Assembly (NCBI GenBank): GCA_003511125.1
Contig: DOJV01000052.1
Location: 1-14,906 of the forward strand
Source of the DNA: Candidatus Uhrbacteria bacterium
Lineage (GTDB): Bacteria; Patescibacteriota; Patescibacteriia; UBA9934; GWF2-40-263
DNA length: 14,906 nucleotides
Direction of reading: 5' to 3'
A program made the position numbers and the translations under genes. Below are positions 2,476-14,112 of the stretch, one piece after another. How positions within the stretch are numbered: position 1 is the stretch's first letter; every line of letters starts with the position of its first letter. The notes under the pieces are model-generated. The model was given only the letters and a program-made list of their open reading frames with translations. It ran no database searches and was not told the origin of the DNA.

Positions 2476-3750
2476 ATGTCCAGACTTAGTATTCCACTTT
2501 CAACAAGATTAGGAACCCGCCAATCGACTAGTTCGAGGCGGGTTCTTTGGCTAATCTTGTTTTGGTTGTTTGTTGTTATTTTTTCTTTTGGTTTGTCCAA
2601 ACTTTGGTTCACTCGCGACACTTTAACTAAATATGCTCCAGACGACACGGTGGTTACAATTCATTTGACTCCGTCTAGGTTAGCCTGGACAAAAATAAAT
2701 GAAGACTTTGGACAAACGCCGTTAATAACCGGCCGTCCGCTTACTACAAAAGATCTATCAACATTTAAAACCAAGGAATTAGCAATTTTTATCTCAGAAA
2801 ACAACGAATCTTCGATCGCCATCCGCGCCAACGACAAAGATTTACCCCGTGACTTATTAAATTCTTATGGAATCACCCTTCAAAAACTAAAAAATGACCA
2901 ATGGTTGTTGTCCTCAAAGCTCCTGCCTTTTTCTACTGAAAACAAAAACGTTTGGAATTTTTCTTCAATTTGGCCAAAAAACCTCGGTTTTATTGTTTTA
3001 AACAATTTTATTGGCCAAATAAAACTTTCGAGTAATGGTTATGAAATAAAAGTCCCAAAAATAAAATCCCCCACCAATTATCTTCCAGCCTTACCAGAAA
3101 ACACTGTAGCGGCGGTTAGTTTACAAAAAAACCAACAACTTGATCTTTCCGGACTTTTTGGGGAAATAGGTTCTTTGTTAGACCCTCTCGAATTAGTTGA
3201 CAGCAATGATTTCAATCAAAAAATCGAAGAAAACGGCGGTTTGGTTCTGTTAGCCAGTTCAAATCAAGAAGACAACAAAACCGAATTTCTTATCGAATCA
3301 GAAATCGACAGTCTGGTTTTGTCTCAGACCCTTCAAACCATTGCCGCTTTTCAAAACCCAAAACTGACCTTAATGGACATGCCTGATAATTCAATCGTCC
3401 AAGAAATCACTGTCTCGCCCCAAGAAGTTGAATTTCAATCCCAATGGATCAATGGTTTAGAAGCAAAAGTCGTCGAAACACCAACGGGGAATATTTTAGC
3501 CCTAGAAAGCGAAAATAAAAATATTATTACCTCAAACCAAGACCTTTTGGAGAATTTTTTAAATAAAAAATTTGAAAAAAACAATCCTACTTGTGGTTCA
3601 AAGAAAAACCTCGTCTTTTTAAAACCAGAAGAAATTAAAAACCTCCTGTTTGAAGAGAATTTTTCTTTTTCAAAACCAAACCTTTTGGAAACAGCTTTAA
3701 ACTTTAATGAAATCGCCATAAATAACGGAAAATTGTTTTTATGCTTCTAG
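2476..3750 (+). CDS. Membrane-anchored extracytoplasmic protein of unknown function
   Basis: This 424-residue protein is not recognised as a named family. It has a short basic N-terminus (about residues 1-22, many Arg/Ser), one hydrophobic segment at about 22-45, then a roughly 380-residue domain probably outside the membrane. Two similar elements, APDDTVVTIHL (54-64) and LPENTVAAVSL (206-216), suggest a duplicated module. They recall surface proteins of the DUF3352 type, where a 'LP.dt..v..l' strand starts each repeat; that resemblance is a weak guess. The ATG lies 2 nt after the pnp stop, so translation may depend on ribosomes finishing pnp. Codons 10-29 coincide with a strong hairpin (2502-2561). 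No internal ATG occurs before the late MDMPDN segment, which supports this start despite the hairpin. Confidence 0.8.
   Translation: MSRLSIPLSTRLGTRQSTSSRRVLWLILFWLFVVIFSFGLSKLWFTRDTLTKYAPDDTVVTIHLTPSRLAWTKINEDFGQTPLITGRPLTTKDLSTFKTKELAIFISENNESSIAIRANDKDLPRDLLNSYGITLQKLKNDQWLLSSKLLPFSTENKNVWNFSSIWPKNLGFIVLNNFIGQIKLSSNGYEIKVPKIKSPTNYLPALPENTVAAVSLQKNQQLDLSGLFGEIGSLLDPLELVDSNDFNQKIEENGGLVLLASSNQEDNKTEFLIESEIDSLVLSQTLQTIAAFQNPKLTLMDMPDNSIVQEITVSPQEVEFQSQWINGLEAKVVETPTGNILALESENKNIITSNQDLLENFLNKKFEKNNPTCGSKKNLVFLKPEEIKNLLFEENFSFSKPNLLETALNFNEIAINNGKLFLCF
2502..2561 (+). terminator. Strong hairpin with T-rich tail inside the start of the membrane-protein gene
   Basis: AACAAGATTAG (2502-2512) pairs perfectly with CTAATCTTGTT (2551-2561). 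Stacked inside it, GAACCCGCC (2513-2521) pairs perfectly with GGCGGGTTC (2537-2545). Only a 5-nt bulge (2546-2550) and a 15-nt loop interrupt the roughly 20-bp helix. The following sequence is T-rich (to about 2590), because it encodes the Leu/Phe/Val membrane segment. The geometry resembles an intrinsic terminator or a 3'-end-protecting hairpin for pnp, but it lies within codons of an intact downstream frame. It may act as a partial terminator or attenuator. Confidence 0.55.
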
Positions 3751-3774: not shown

Positions 3775-3858
3775 TGTGGATAAGTTCGGTATAACCAACC
3801 AAAACTGTGGATAAGTATTCACAGTTTTAAAAATCCTTTGAACACAAAATGTGGAAAA
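3775..3858 (-). promoter_or_regulatory. Cluster of three DnaA-box-like sites
   Basis: TGTGGATAA occurs at 3775-3783 and 3806-3814; each is the exact complement of the consensus DnaA box TTATCCACA. A third copy, TGTGGAAAA (TTTTCCACA on the other strand), lies at 3850-3858. All three point the same way and fall within 84 bp in an AT-rich intergenic region. AT-rich sequence (about 3859-3880) follows, as at a DNA-unwinding element. This fits either a replication origin or DnaA control of the promoter at 3897-3925. No dnaA or dnaN gene is in the window, so the origin reading is uncertain. Confidence 0.5.
3801..3828 (+). terminator. Perfect 9-bp hairpin ending in TTTT, candidate terminator of the pnp operon
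   Basis: AAAACTGTG (3801-3809) is the exact complement of CACAGTTTT (3820-3828) around a 10-nt loop. The stem carries A's on one side and T's on the other, as in a bidirectional terminator, and it lies 51 bp after the membrane-protein stop codon. The U tract is short. The stem and loop also contain the second DnaA-box-like 9-mer, so the palindrome may instead serve protein binding. Confidence 0.4.
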
Positions 3859-3914
3859 CTTTTTAAATTTAACTAAACAAAGCACAAAAGGTATCGTTGA
3901 CTTTTTGTGTTCAA
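3838..3914. repeat. 12-bp inverted repeat whose right arm overlaps the RNA promoter
   Basis: TTGAACACAAAA (3838-3849) is the exact reverse complement of TTTTGTGTTCAA (3903-3914), with 53 bp between the arms. The right arm fills most of the spacer between the -35 and -10 boxes at 3897-3925. The left arm abuts the third DnaA-box-like site. This arrangement suits a looped or paired operator, though no regulator can be named from the sequence. Confidence 0.45.
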
Positions 3915-3925
3915 GCGTGTATAAT
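3897..3925 (+). promoter_or_regulatory. Near-perfect sigma70 promoter
   Basis: TTGACT (3897-3902) and TATAAT (3920-3925) are separated by exactly 17 bp, with AT-rich DNA upstream. The expected start is near 3932. This is the strongest promoter in the window, and it drives a region with no convincing protein gene, which supports the non-coding RNA call. Confidence 0.8.
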
Positions 3926-3931
3926 GGTTAT

Positions 3932-4338
3932 AGAAGCTTAGTAAGCAATTCGAAAACGTTCTTTATACATCAAACGGGAAGTTTTCCGAAGGCGAGATAC
4001 AAAAAACATTGGTCGGTTACCCCATTTTCCGGGCAATGATCTCAATCTTTCGGGAAATATCCCACTTCTCTACTTGTTAGTTTGCGAAAAAACAAAAACA
4101 AAAACAAAAAACCAAGCAACTAGGTCCGCTAGCACTTATGCAGGGGTTTAACCCTCTGTCGCGAGCAAGACCATTAATTGGTAGAGAAGTTGAGTCGTCT
4201 TAGGCTGTTTGTCCCCTGTCGGGTGCCGAGTTTAGTAAAACATGATTGTTTTTCTAAACCCGGCACCTGCTCGATCAATCACAGCCTCCTCAAGGGGGCA
4301 CCCAACTTTTTTTAGGGTATCACCCCCTTCTTTTTTTT
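3932..4338 (+). ncRNA. Candidate structured RNA of unknown class, about 400 nt
   Basis: The region is bounded by a consensus promoter and an intrinsic terminator and is rich in long complementary segments. The 5' domain has GAGAT/ATCTC (3994-3998/4039-4043) stacked on CATTG/CAATG (4007-4011/4034-4038), above a bulged helix TTTCCGAAG/CTTTCGGGAAA (3983-3991/4047-4057). A perfect 10-bp long-range helix pairs ACTTCTCTAC (4064-4073) with GTAGAGAAGT (4181-4190). It encloses an A-rich linker with a repeated CAAAAA unit (about 4086-4112) and a small domain closed by GGTC/GACC (4123-4126/4169-4172), with CAGGGG/CCCTCTG at its tip. The 3' domain has AGGCTGT/ACAGCCT (4202-4208/4281-4287) and a 19-bp hairpin (4222-4267). 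I see none of the hallmark sequences of tmRNA, RNase P RNA, SRP RNA or rRNA. It could also be a long regulatory leader of the downstream traR/dksA-like operon. Confidence 0.6.
4292..4338 (+). terminator. Intrinsic terminator of the candidate RNA
   Basis: AAGGGGG (4292-4298) pairs with CCCCCTT (4323-4329), and ACCC (4300-4303) pairs with GGGT (4315-4318). A run of eight T's follows (4331-4338), then a second T tract. The upper part is interrupted by a small internal loop. An alternative 6-bp hairpin, GCCTCC (4284-4289) with GGGGGC (4294-4299), would exclude this terminator. Confidence 0.75.
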
Positions 4339-4423: not shown

Positions 4424-4451
4424 TTGATTTTTTAAGAAAACCTGCTATACT
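4424..4451 (+). promoter_or_regulatory. Promoter of the traR/dksA-like - lspA - comM group
   Basis: TTGATT (4424-4429) and TATACT (4446-4451) are spaced by 16 bp, with an expected start near 4458. The 5' leader would be about 43 nt. It starts with the inverted repeat AGAACA-CGAGA-TGTTCT (4458-4474), which may be a 5' hairpin or an operator. The position after the RNA terminator and before the ATG at 4501 supports the call. Confidence 0.6.
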
Positions 4452-4500: not shown

Positions 4501-4875
4501 ATGAAAAAGGAACTCCTGCAAAAACTAAAAGACCTACTGTTGGCCGAAAAAGAAAGACTAACCAAAGAACTTTCTCAATTCTCCCATCGCAATCCCAAAT
4601 CCGCGACCACGGACTATAATTCTGATTTTCCAAACTTTGGCGACAGCGAAGATGAAAACGCCGCCGAAGTAGCCCAGTTTACCGATAATTTATCTTTGGA
4701 AGACGAGTTAGAAAAAGCCTTACGCGATGTGGACTCTTCTTTAAAACGAATTGAAAATGGCTCGTATGGCCTTTGCAATTATTGCAAACAAGCCATCGAC
4801 GAAAAACGCTTAATTGCTCGACCCACATCCTCTTCTTGTATTCGTTGTAAAAAAACTCTTACCCAAGAGATGTGA
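4501..4875 (+). CDS. TraR/DksA-family zinc-finger protein
   Basis: The product has 124 residues. A charged helical, probably coiled-coil region (about 1-85) precedes a C4 zinc finger with C92-x2-C95 and C113-x2-C116 in the typical context YGLCNYC...RLIARPTSSSCIRC. DksA/TraR proteins insert a coiled coil into the RNA polymerase secondary channel and modulate initiation, in many species together with ppGpp. Length and finger spacing fit the family, though the acidic middle (GDSEDEN) may not match the DksA tip exactly. No Shine-Dalgarno is evident before the ATG. The TGA stop overlaps the lspA GTG start, implying translational coupling. Whether it works as DksA or as another member of the family cannot be told. 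Confidence 0.88.
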   Translation: MKKELLQKLKDLLLAEKERLTKELSQFSHRNPKSATTDYNSDFPNFGDSEDENAAEVAQFTDNLSLEDELEKALRDVDSSLKRIENGSYGLCNYCKQAIDEKRLIARPTSSSCIRCKKTLTQEM

Positions 4876-5315
4876 AGACAAAACAAAAAATCTTAGTTGT
4901 TGCCGCCGCTTTTCTGGTTATTTTAGACGAATGGTTAAAAAACCTAGCATTAAAATCCTTTCCAGGCGAATCAGAAATTTCCGGTAAACATTTTCTCGAG
5001 TTGGCTGTTCATAAAAATTTGGGAATCGCCTTTGATTTACCGATTTGGTTGCCATTGGTGGCAATCTTAACAGTAATCGTCATCGCCGGATTACTCTTTG
5101 TTGCCATTCAAAACAAAAAAACCCAGCCCTGGATTGCCGCTTCGGCCCTAATTATTATCTGTGGAGCTGTTGGAAATCTGATCGATCGTTTGGTTTATGG
5201 ATTCACGGTTGATTATTTAATCATCCCCGTAACCGGCTCGGCTTTTAATCTGTCTGACCTTGTAATAATTTCCGGTTTAATTCTGTTAATTGTAAAAAAG
5301 CAAAAGAAAACTTAG
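4872..5315 (+). CDS. lspA: Lipoprotein signal peptidase (signal peptidase II)
   Basis: LspA is an aspartyl protease of the inner membrane that cleaves signal peptides from diacylglyceryl-modified prolipoproteins. The 147-residue product has about four hydrophobic segments and the family motifs: D19 near the N-terminus (DEWLK), KNLGIAF (48-54), GAVGNLIDR with catalytic D105, and FNLSD with catalytic D129. FNLSD is a variant of the common FN-[IV]-AD. The start is GTG at 4872, overlapping the upstream TGA by 4 nt (GTGA), with an AAGAG purine stretch just upstream. This is close to the family's usual length (about 150-170 residues). It implies that the organism makes lipoproteins. Confidence 0.95.
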   Translation: MKTKQKILVVAAAFLVILDEWLKNLALKSFPGESEISGKHFLELAVHKNLGIAFDLPIWLPLVAILTVIVIAGLLFVAIQNKKTQPWIAASALIIICGAVGNLIDRLVYGFTVDYLIIPVTGSAFNLSDLVIISGLILLIVKKQKKT

Positions 5316-13653: not shown

Positions 13654-14112
13654 ATGGATCAAAACCCTTTGAATCAATACCGAAAATTGTTTCACACCGT
13701 CTACGATTGTCGGTACCACGTCGTTTTCGTTCCCAAATACCGATTCCGTATTCTGGAAGGAGAAATTGCTTCTTGTATTCAAGAAAAATTTCGACAGATT
13801 TGTGAATGGAAAGAAGTTAACCTGATTGAAGGAAAGGTCAGAACCGACCACGTCCATCTTTATCTTTCCGTTCCTCCGAAATACAGTATTTCCGATGTCC
13901 TGAAATGGTTGAAAGGCGACAGTTCGGTTCAAGTCTTTCGTCGATTTCCAGAAATCAAGAAAAGATACTGGGGTCAACATTTCTGGGCAAGGGGCTATTT
14001 TGTCAGTACTGTAGGAATAACCGATGAAATCATTCGGGCTTATATTAAACACCAAGAACAGCAAGAACTTTTGGAGGAAGAGTTAGATAAACAGCAAAGA
14101 CTATGGAAGTAG
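13654..14112 (+). CDS. tnpA: IS200-family Y1 transposase (TnpA)
   Basis: The 152-residue product has the HUH motif TDHVHLYLSVPP (H66, H68) and the helix ITDEIIRAYIKHQEQ with catalytic Tyr130 and metal ligand Gln134. These are the active-site parts of the single-strand transposases of IS200/IS605. Other family landmarks are the opening HTVYDCRYHVVFVPKYR, the SISDVLKWLKGDSS region and WGQHFWARGYFVSTVG. The gene is complete, without frameshift, and of normal length (about 150). TnpA cleaves and rejoins the hairpin ends as a dimer. No Shine-Dalgarno is obvious before the ATG, which agrees with the low expression of many transposases. Confidence 0.96.
   Translation: MDQNPLNQYRKLFHTVYDCRYHVVFVPKYRFRILEGEIASCIQEKFRQICEWKEVNLIEGKVRTDHVHLYLSVPPKYSISDVLKWLKGDSSVQVFRRFPEIKKRYWGQHFWARGYFVSTVGITDEIIRAYIKHQEQQELLEEELDKQQRLWK

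Follow-up and report, generated by a model that had tools for sequence, protein, structure and literature searches.

Positions 3932–4338 of the window (the whole stretch of DNA that was analysed, 14,906 nt) almost certainly form a real stand-alone RNA gene, as judged from the sequence and its relatives. Many members of the class, which comprises Uhrbacteria and related candidate lineages, share the predicted gene, mostly in a single copy. We are highly confident that the RNA is a new family outside Rfam 15, although its general kind, the stand-alone structured RNA, is already known. For its role, we lean towards a new class of trans-acting RNA, probably under the control of DnaA.

The RNA gene and its flanking signals

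The gene lies on the + strand and is ~407 nt long, its start being inferred from the promoter and its end from a U-run. The promoter, TTGACT-17-TATAAT, is of the sigma-70 type, is located at 3897–3925 (+ strand) and has 11/12 consensus matches in a promoter scan of the window, as the original prediction implied. At 41 of 52 order-or-class loci, a hand count gives a TTGAC- or TTTAC-type −35 element, a spacing of 16–18 nt, and at least 9/12 matches. The promoter, the leader, and the downstream dksA-type gene are kept across loci.

The 3′ end carries a terminator-like stem and U-run (4292–4338, + strand). By eye, a G-rich stem is formed by 4292–4298 with 4323–4329 and is followed by the U-run at 4331–4338. 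The automatic terminator scan of the window lists no terminator at this end. The scan has a loop limit of 8 and the loop here is longer, so the terminator is a by-eye reading. The predicted intrinsic terminator is present as this stem and U-run.

The minimum free energy of 3932–4338 is −133.1 kcal/mol, compared with −95.3 kcal/mol (s.d. 5.4) in 100 shuffles (z = −7.07). The + strand ORFs of at least 40 aa that overlap the interval encode 62 aa (3851–4039) and 45 aa (4178–4315), and neither has a match in Pfam. As the overlapping ORFs have no family match, a protein gene at 3932–4338 is rejected, consistent with the earlier claim that no convincing protein gene is present.

Consensus structure

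The RNA is predicted to form four main helices, all on the + strand. P1 (3976–4063) pairs GGGA-A-GUUUUCCGAA (3976–3990) with UUCGGGAAAU-A-UCCC (4049–4063). P2 (4064–4190) pairs ACUUCUCUAC (4064–4073) with GUAGAGAAGU (4181–4190) and closes a junction. This is the perfect 10-bp long-range helix of the original prediction; it is exact, and the family consensus adds a few pairs inward. P3 (4123–4172) pairs GGUC (4123–4126) with GACC (4169–4172), followed by one C opposite AA and then by GCU/AGC. P4 (4221–4268) is the 3′ hairpin, GGGUGCCGAGUUUAG...CUAAACCCGGCACC. It had been described with two mismatches; the hairpin is present, with one mismatch corrected, namely an A·C that is conserved between invariant pairs and is replaced by C·C in a few relatives. 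The A-rich segment is also found where it was predicted (about 4086–4113, + strand). It consists of AAAAAC repeats and, by eye, appears to form a hairpin loop within the junction.

Covariation is strong for P2, P3, and P4. Alignments A3 and A6 contain 28 and 27 of the 52 order-or-class loci, respectively, loci with ends that the script could not place and close repeats being omitted. In A3, 92.2% of the cells in the 41 pairs of P2–P4 are standard pairs (77.2% when shuffled), 28 of the 41 pairs show two-sided change (19.3 when shuffled), and the covariation score is 0.499 (0.211 when shuffled and at most 0.139 when slid); the structure scored comes mostly from a fold of the same alignment, which favours that structure. 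By helix, two-sided change is seen in 8/13 pairs of P2, 5/9 pairs of P3, and 15/19 pairs of P4. An alignment of other class families gives 11/20 pairs with two-sided change and a score of 0.397 versus 0.188, and P2 has 9/16 such pairs in the alignment of these families. The class-plus-order alignment (A4) misplaced P3 and is excluded from the counts. Therefore, helices P2, P3, and P4 are well supported as predictions from the alignments.

Covariation is weaker for P1. Its cells are paired in 96.3% of cases (92.7% when shuffled), 4 of its 14 pairs show two-sided change, a count reached by 53 of 500 shuffles, and its score is 0.262 (0.192 when shuffled and 0.193 when slid by one). The signal is weak because P1 is nearly invariant, and P1 is a plausible helix.

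A hairpin at the tip of P1 (4007–4038, + strand) presents CCCCA (4020–4024) in its loop. A CCCCA or UCCCA loop on a stem of at least four pairs occurs in 34 of 52 loci, compared with 58 of 1040 shuffles, although in two of the 34 (G003 and G067) it is a P1 strand instead of the tip hairpin. In 32/52 loci, the loop is kept and the stem differs between genera, the search itself having required that loop. A loop of seven nucleotides in which an A comes after CCC may resemble an anticodon loop. The constancy of the loop on a changing stem is what would be expected of a base-pairing small RNA, the CCCCA loop of which meets G-rich mRNA starts. However, conservation is equally strong over the remainder of the RNA, pointing to more than a single pairing site, and we regard a base-pairing small RNA as improbable.

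Searches for known RNA families

None of the 4227 families of Rfam 15 matches the locus at or above its gathering score. Among matches in the window up to E = 10, the best has an E-value of 0.42; their scores are far under the gathering scores, and they are chance-like and mostly outside the interval. The RNA has no Rfam match at 20 class loci, the single match there being a tRNA outside the RNA, and none at 20 order loci. The absence of a credible match at all of these loci agrees with the novelty originally proposed.

RNase P RNA (RF00010), tmRNA (RF00023 and ARAGORN), and 6S RNA (RF00013) were each considered and rejected, as none of them matches the locus; for RNase P RNA and tmRNA, this bears out the earlier remark that their signatures are absent. 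Across the window, ARAGORN reports neither tRNA nor tmRNA genes. The RNase P RNA of the genome is located elsewhere (G000:C48), and 17 of 24 relatives have a full-length tmRNA that exceeds the Rfam cut-off; some of these relatives (G001 and G003) also carry RNA of the 3932–4338 type. Because RNase P RNA and tmRNA coexist with the new RNA in the same genomes, the new RNA is no replacement for them. We also observe that tmRNA over the Rfam cut-off is absent in 7/24 genomes (G000, G006, G007, G009, G035, G041, and G043), and that G035 is rated 100% complete.

Distribution

A DNA search over 59 relatives matched 8 genomes, that of the window included. Covariance model R1, built from these 8 copies, finds the RNA in 51 of the 72 genomes of the order to which the window belongs, and the match to R1 is partial in G004, G021, G029, G034, and G016. 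Covariance model R2, built from 28 copies and spanning P2–P4, recovers 12 of the 21 order genomes missed by R1, two of them (G051 and G063) weakly. Together, R1 and R2 place the RNA in 63/72 order genomes, the conservation among relatives that a structured RNA should show. The other nine have no match to R1 or R2 and may truly lack the RNA.

At class level, a third covariance model, R3, was trained on 13 copies from other families of the class. With strict filters, it matches 71 of the 285 class genomes, 13 of the 71 being its training genomes. The remaining 214 have no match to R3 under these filters, and real absence is possible in them as well. Two class matches of R2 that are doubtful by eye (G579 and G384) were kept out of R3. 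R3 was not trained on the window's copy but finds it at 61.6 bits, indicating that the RNA is broader than narrowly lineage-specific. Of the proposed new lineage-specific RNA class, the novelty therefore stands, in that Rfam has no match, and the narrow lineage does not. Uhrbacteria belong to the class called ABY1.

Among 286 phylum-wide genomes, R1 matches three and R3 matches five, four of these five in the class. The out-of-class matches, G270 (R1) and G350 (R3), are unsupported by R2 and are treated as chance. When the most conserved segment is used as a pattern to scan named public records, nine matches are obtained. Seven are confirmed by R2, and six of the seven are labelled Candidatus Uhrbacteria; L197 (labelled Sulfuricurvum) and L199 (labelled Deltaproteobacteria) are unconfirmed by R2 and were set aside. 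Weak second matches on the opposite strand, which arise because the hairpins are near-palindromic, were dropped. A mobile element is rejected, as the RNA is found in synteny and mostly as a single copy, and its most conserved segment, searched as one pattern, has no exact match in viral contigs.

DnaA boxes upstream of the promoter

Two perfect DnaA boxes precede the promoter in the window, both on the − strand. The first (TTATCCACA) is located at 3775–3783 and the second, 31 bp from it, at 3806–3814. A pair of boxes in the same orientation and exactly 31 bp apart is found in 35 of 52 loci. Of 53 loci, 52 carry one or more perfect boxes in the 500 nt that precede the RNA core; the exception (G270) is the spurious locus, and the remainder of the same 53 loci contains none. 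As background, 35 of 3196 segments of 500 nt contain a perfect box and 3 contain two, the stretches from which they are drawn including some RNA loci. When the upstream stretches are replaced by first-order Markov copies, 7 of 2080 contain a perfect box, and 0/4 RNase P and tmRNA loci have one upstream. Among 25 further R2 or R3 loci, a perfect box lies no more than 330 nt away in 20; the other five (G046, G051, G579, G384, and G427) have none within this distance.

A second element, TTGAACACA (3838–3846, + strand), is an inverted copy of TGTGTTCAA (3906–3914), which lies inside the promoter spacer, so that the pair flanks and enters the promoter. Two copies are present in the window, compared with 0.18 expected. 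Six of its nine positions agree with the DnaA box. TGAACAC or GTGTTCA occurs within 500 nt upstream in 35/52 loci and is missing in 17/52. The inverted pair may represent weak DnaA boxes or the site of another regulator. In other genera (G010, G060, G061, and related loci, L032, L033, and L035), we observe by eye that an inverted repeat, TTGACC-TTGACT ... GGTCAA, replaces GTGTTCAA in the promoter spacer.

The placement of the boxes suggests that DnaA is likely to act at the RNA promoter. The boxes could, however, serve an origin rather than the promoter.

Position relative to dnaA and the replication origin

If the boxes serve an origin, the locus would be, or be part of, the chromosomal origin, and transcription or an RNA–DNA hybrid would help or restrain initiation. 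In addition to the upstream boxes, several observations are consistent with this. A cluster of DnaA boxes, as expected of oriC, is found at the RNA locus, and in G013, G014, and G002 no denser cluster occurs in the sequence that was read than the one upstream of the RNA. We searched for dnaA in 21 genomes and found it on the contig of the RNA in 13. The distance between the two is at most 25 kb in 11 of the 13; in the other two it is 55 kb (G019) and 132 kb (G359), the RNA in G359, as in G366 and G598, being called by R3 only. The GC skew changes sign near the RNA in G004 and G013.

Other observations argue against an origin at the RNA. The minimum of the cumulative GC skew is closer to dnaA in both G013 (minimum at 62.2 kb, dnaA at 65.2 kb, and RNA at 76.3 kb) and G014 (minimum at 75.3 kb, dnaA at 73.9 kb, and RNA at 49.8 kb, ~25 kb off the minimum). 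In G004, the minimum falls between dnaA and the RNA, with a gap in the data, and no clear skew is seen in G002, G019 (half read), or G419 (a third read). The RNA is far from dnaA in the two genomes given above, and weaker boxes also precede dnaA itself. In five genomes (L128, L129, L131, L132, and L135), these form a weaker DnaA-like pair 51 bp apart, which is perhaps the actual origin. Since the skew minimum is nearer dnaA in G013 and G014, we conclude that the RNA belongs to the neighbourhood of dnaA and that the origin itself is more likely at dnaA. We therefore consider an origin at the RNA locus unlikely.

Neighbouring genes

Downstream of the RNA, the window has a dksA/traR-type zinc-finger gene (4501–4875, + strand), then lspA (4872–5315), and then a comM-type gene, the first two being conserved neighbours. 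Upstream lies a gene for a 424-aa protein (2476–3750) that has no match in Pfam or NCBIfam. The RNA is thus flanked by the 424-aa gene and the dksA-type gene, which corrects the earlier placement in that it does not lie directly between pnp and lspA. Several class loci likewise have long ORFs, about as large as the 424-aa gene, on the upstream side of the RNA. Elsewhere in the window, an IS200/IS605 family transposase (NF033573) is located at 13654–14112.

A dksA-type gene is present within 1500 nt downstream in 48 of 52 loci, and two of the four exceptions are cut by contig ends. The dksA–lspA order is also found in class loci of other families (L177, L181, L188, and L190). The RNA lies directly upstream of the dksA-type gene and on the same strand in the window and in most loci, as a riboswitch-like leader of dksA would. 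However, ~160 nt separate its terminator-like end from the start of dksA, and this gap contains a weaker promoter-like site (4424–4451). Moreover, the RNA is not tied to dksA: in G385, the RNA and the dksA-type gene are on opposite strands, and no dksA-type gene is seen within 1500 nt downstream in G001 and G047. These strand and gene exceptions in particular make a dksA leader very unlikely.

The same neighbour bears on a functional stand-in for 6S RNA, which would regulate RNA polymerase and adjoin dksA, the product of which also binds polymerase. In accordance with such a role, RF00013 has no match in 24/24 genomes, but the same model failed to give a match in 9 of 14 control genomes, and its silence thus says little. 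Adjacent genes need not have a common function. The consensus structure combines a junction with separate hairpins, unlike 6S RNA, which is a single rod with a central bubble. A stand-in for 6S RNA is, on the predicted structure and gene order, quite improbable.

Proposed function

The reading that we prefer is a trans-acting RNA under probable DnaA control. DnaA, perhaps with a second factor at the TTGAACACA element, would set transcription of the RNA, and the amount of RNA would then follow either the initiator or the cell cycle. Its action would be in trans, with the junction and P4 as putative protein-binding parts, and the exposed CCCCA loop may contact either a protein or a G-rich segment of a second nucleic acid. 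In this detail, the model of a trans-acting, protein-bound regulator is tentative. It is doubtful that the RNA is a class-wide, dedicated replication regulator, the synthesis of which is driven by DnaA through the box pair and which feeds back on DnaA or initiation. An RNA of this kind is not known to be part of replication control in other bacterial chromosomes, and none is among the papers listed in a literature search.

Patescibacteria are a large, almost uncultured share of bacterial diversity and have very small genomes. An RNA gene kept across many families of the class in such genomes likely matters to the cell. It could open a new kind of housekeeping RNA, or RNA-based replication control in patescibacteria, and the consensus structure and covariance models make its function testable.

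Comparison with known systems

OLE, ROOL, GOLLD, and raiA, large bacterial RNAs of unknown or recently found role, are, like the new RNA, long, strongly structured, encoded by their own gene, and of narrow taxonomic range; the new RNA differs from them in having no Rfam match, other helices, and fixed upstream DnaA boxes. Like 6S RNA, the new RNA has a separate small gene of housekeeping type, in its case close to the gene for a protein that binds polymerase, but it does not match RF00013 and has a different architecture. RNase P RNA and tmRNA are similar in length and number of helices and likewise have a long-range helix and an A-rich joint, whereas neither model matches the locus and RNase P RNA is encoded elsewhere in the genome. 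The datA and DARS loci of E. coli, DnaA-box loci outside oriC, are likewise small conserved clusters of DnaA boxes near, and not at, dnaA; unlike them, the new locus carries a conserved RNA gene.
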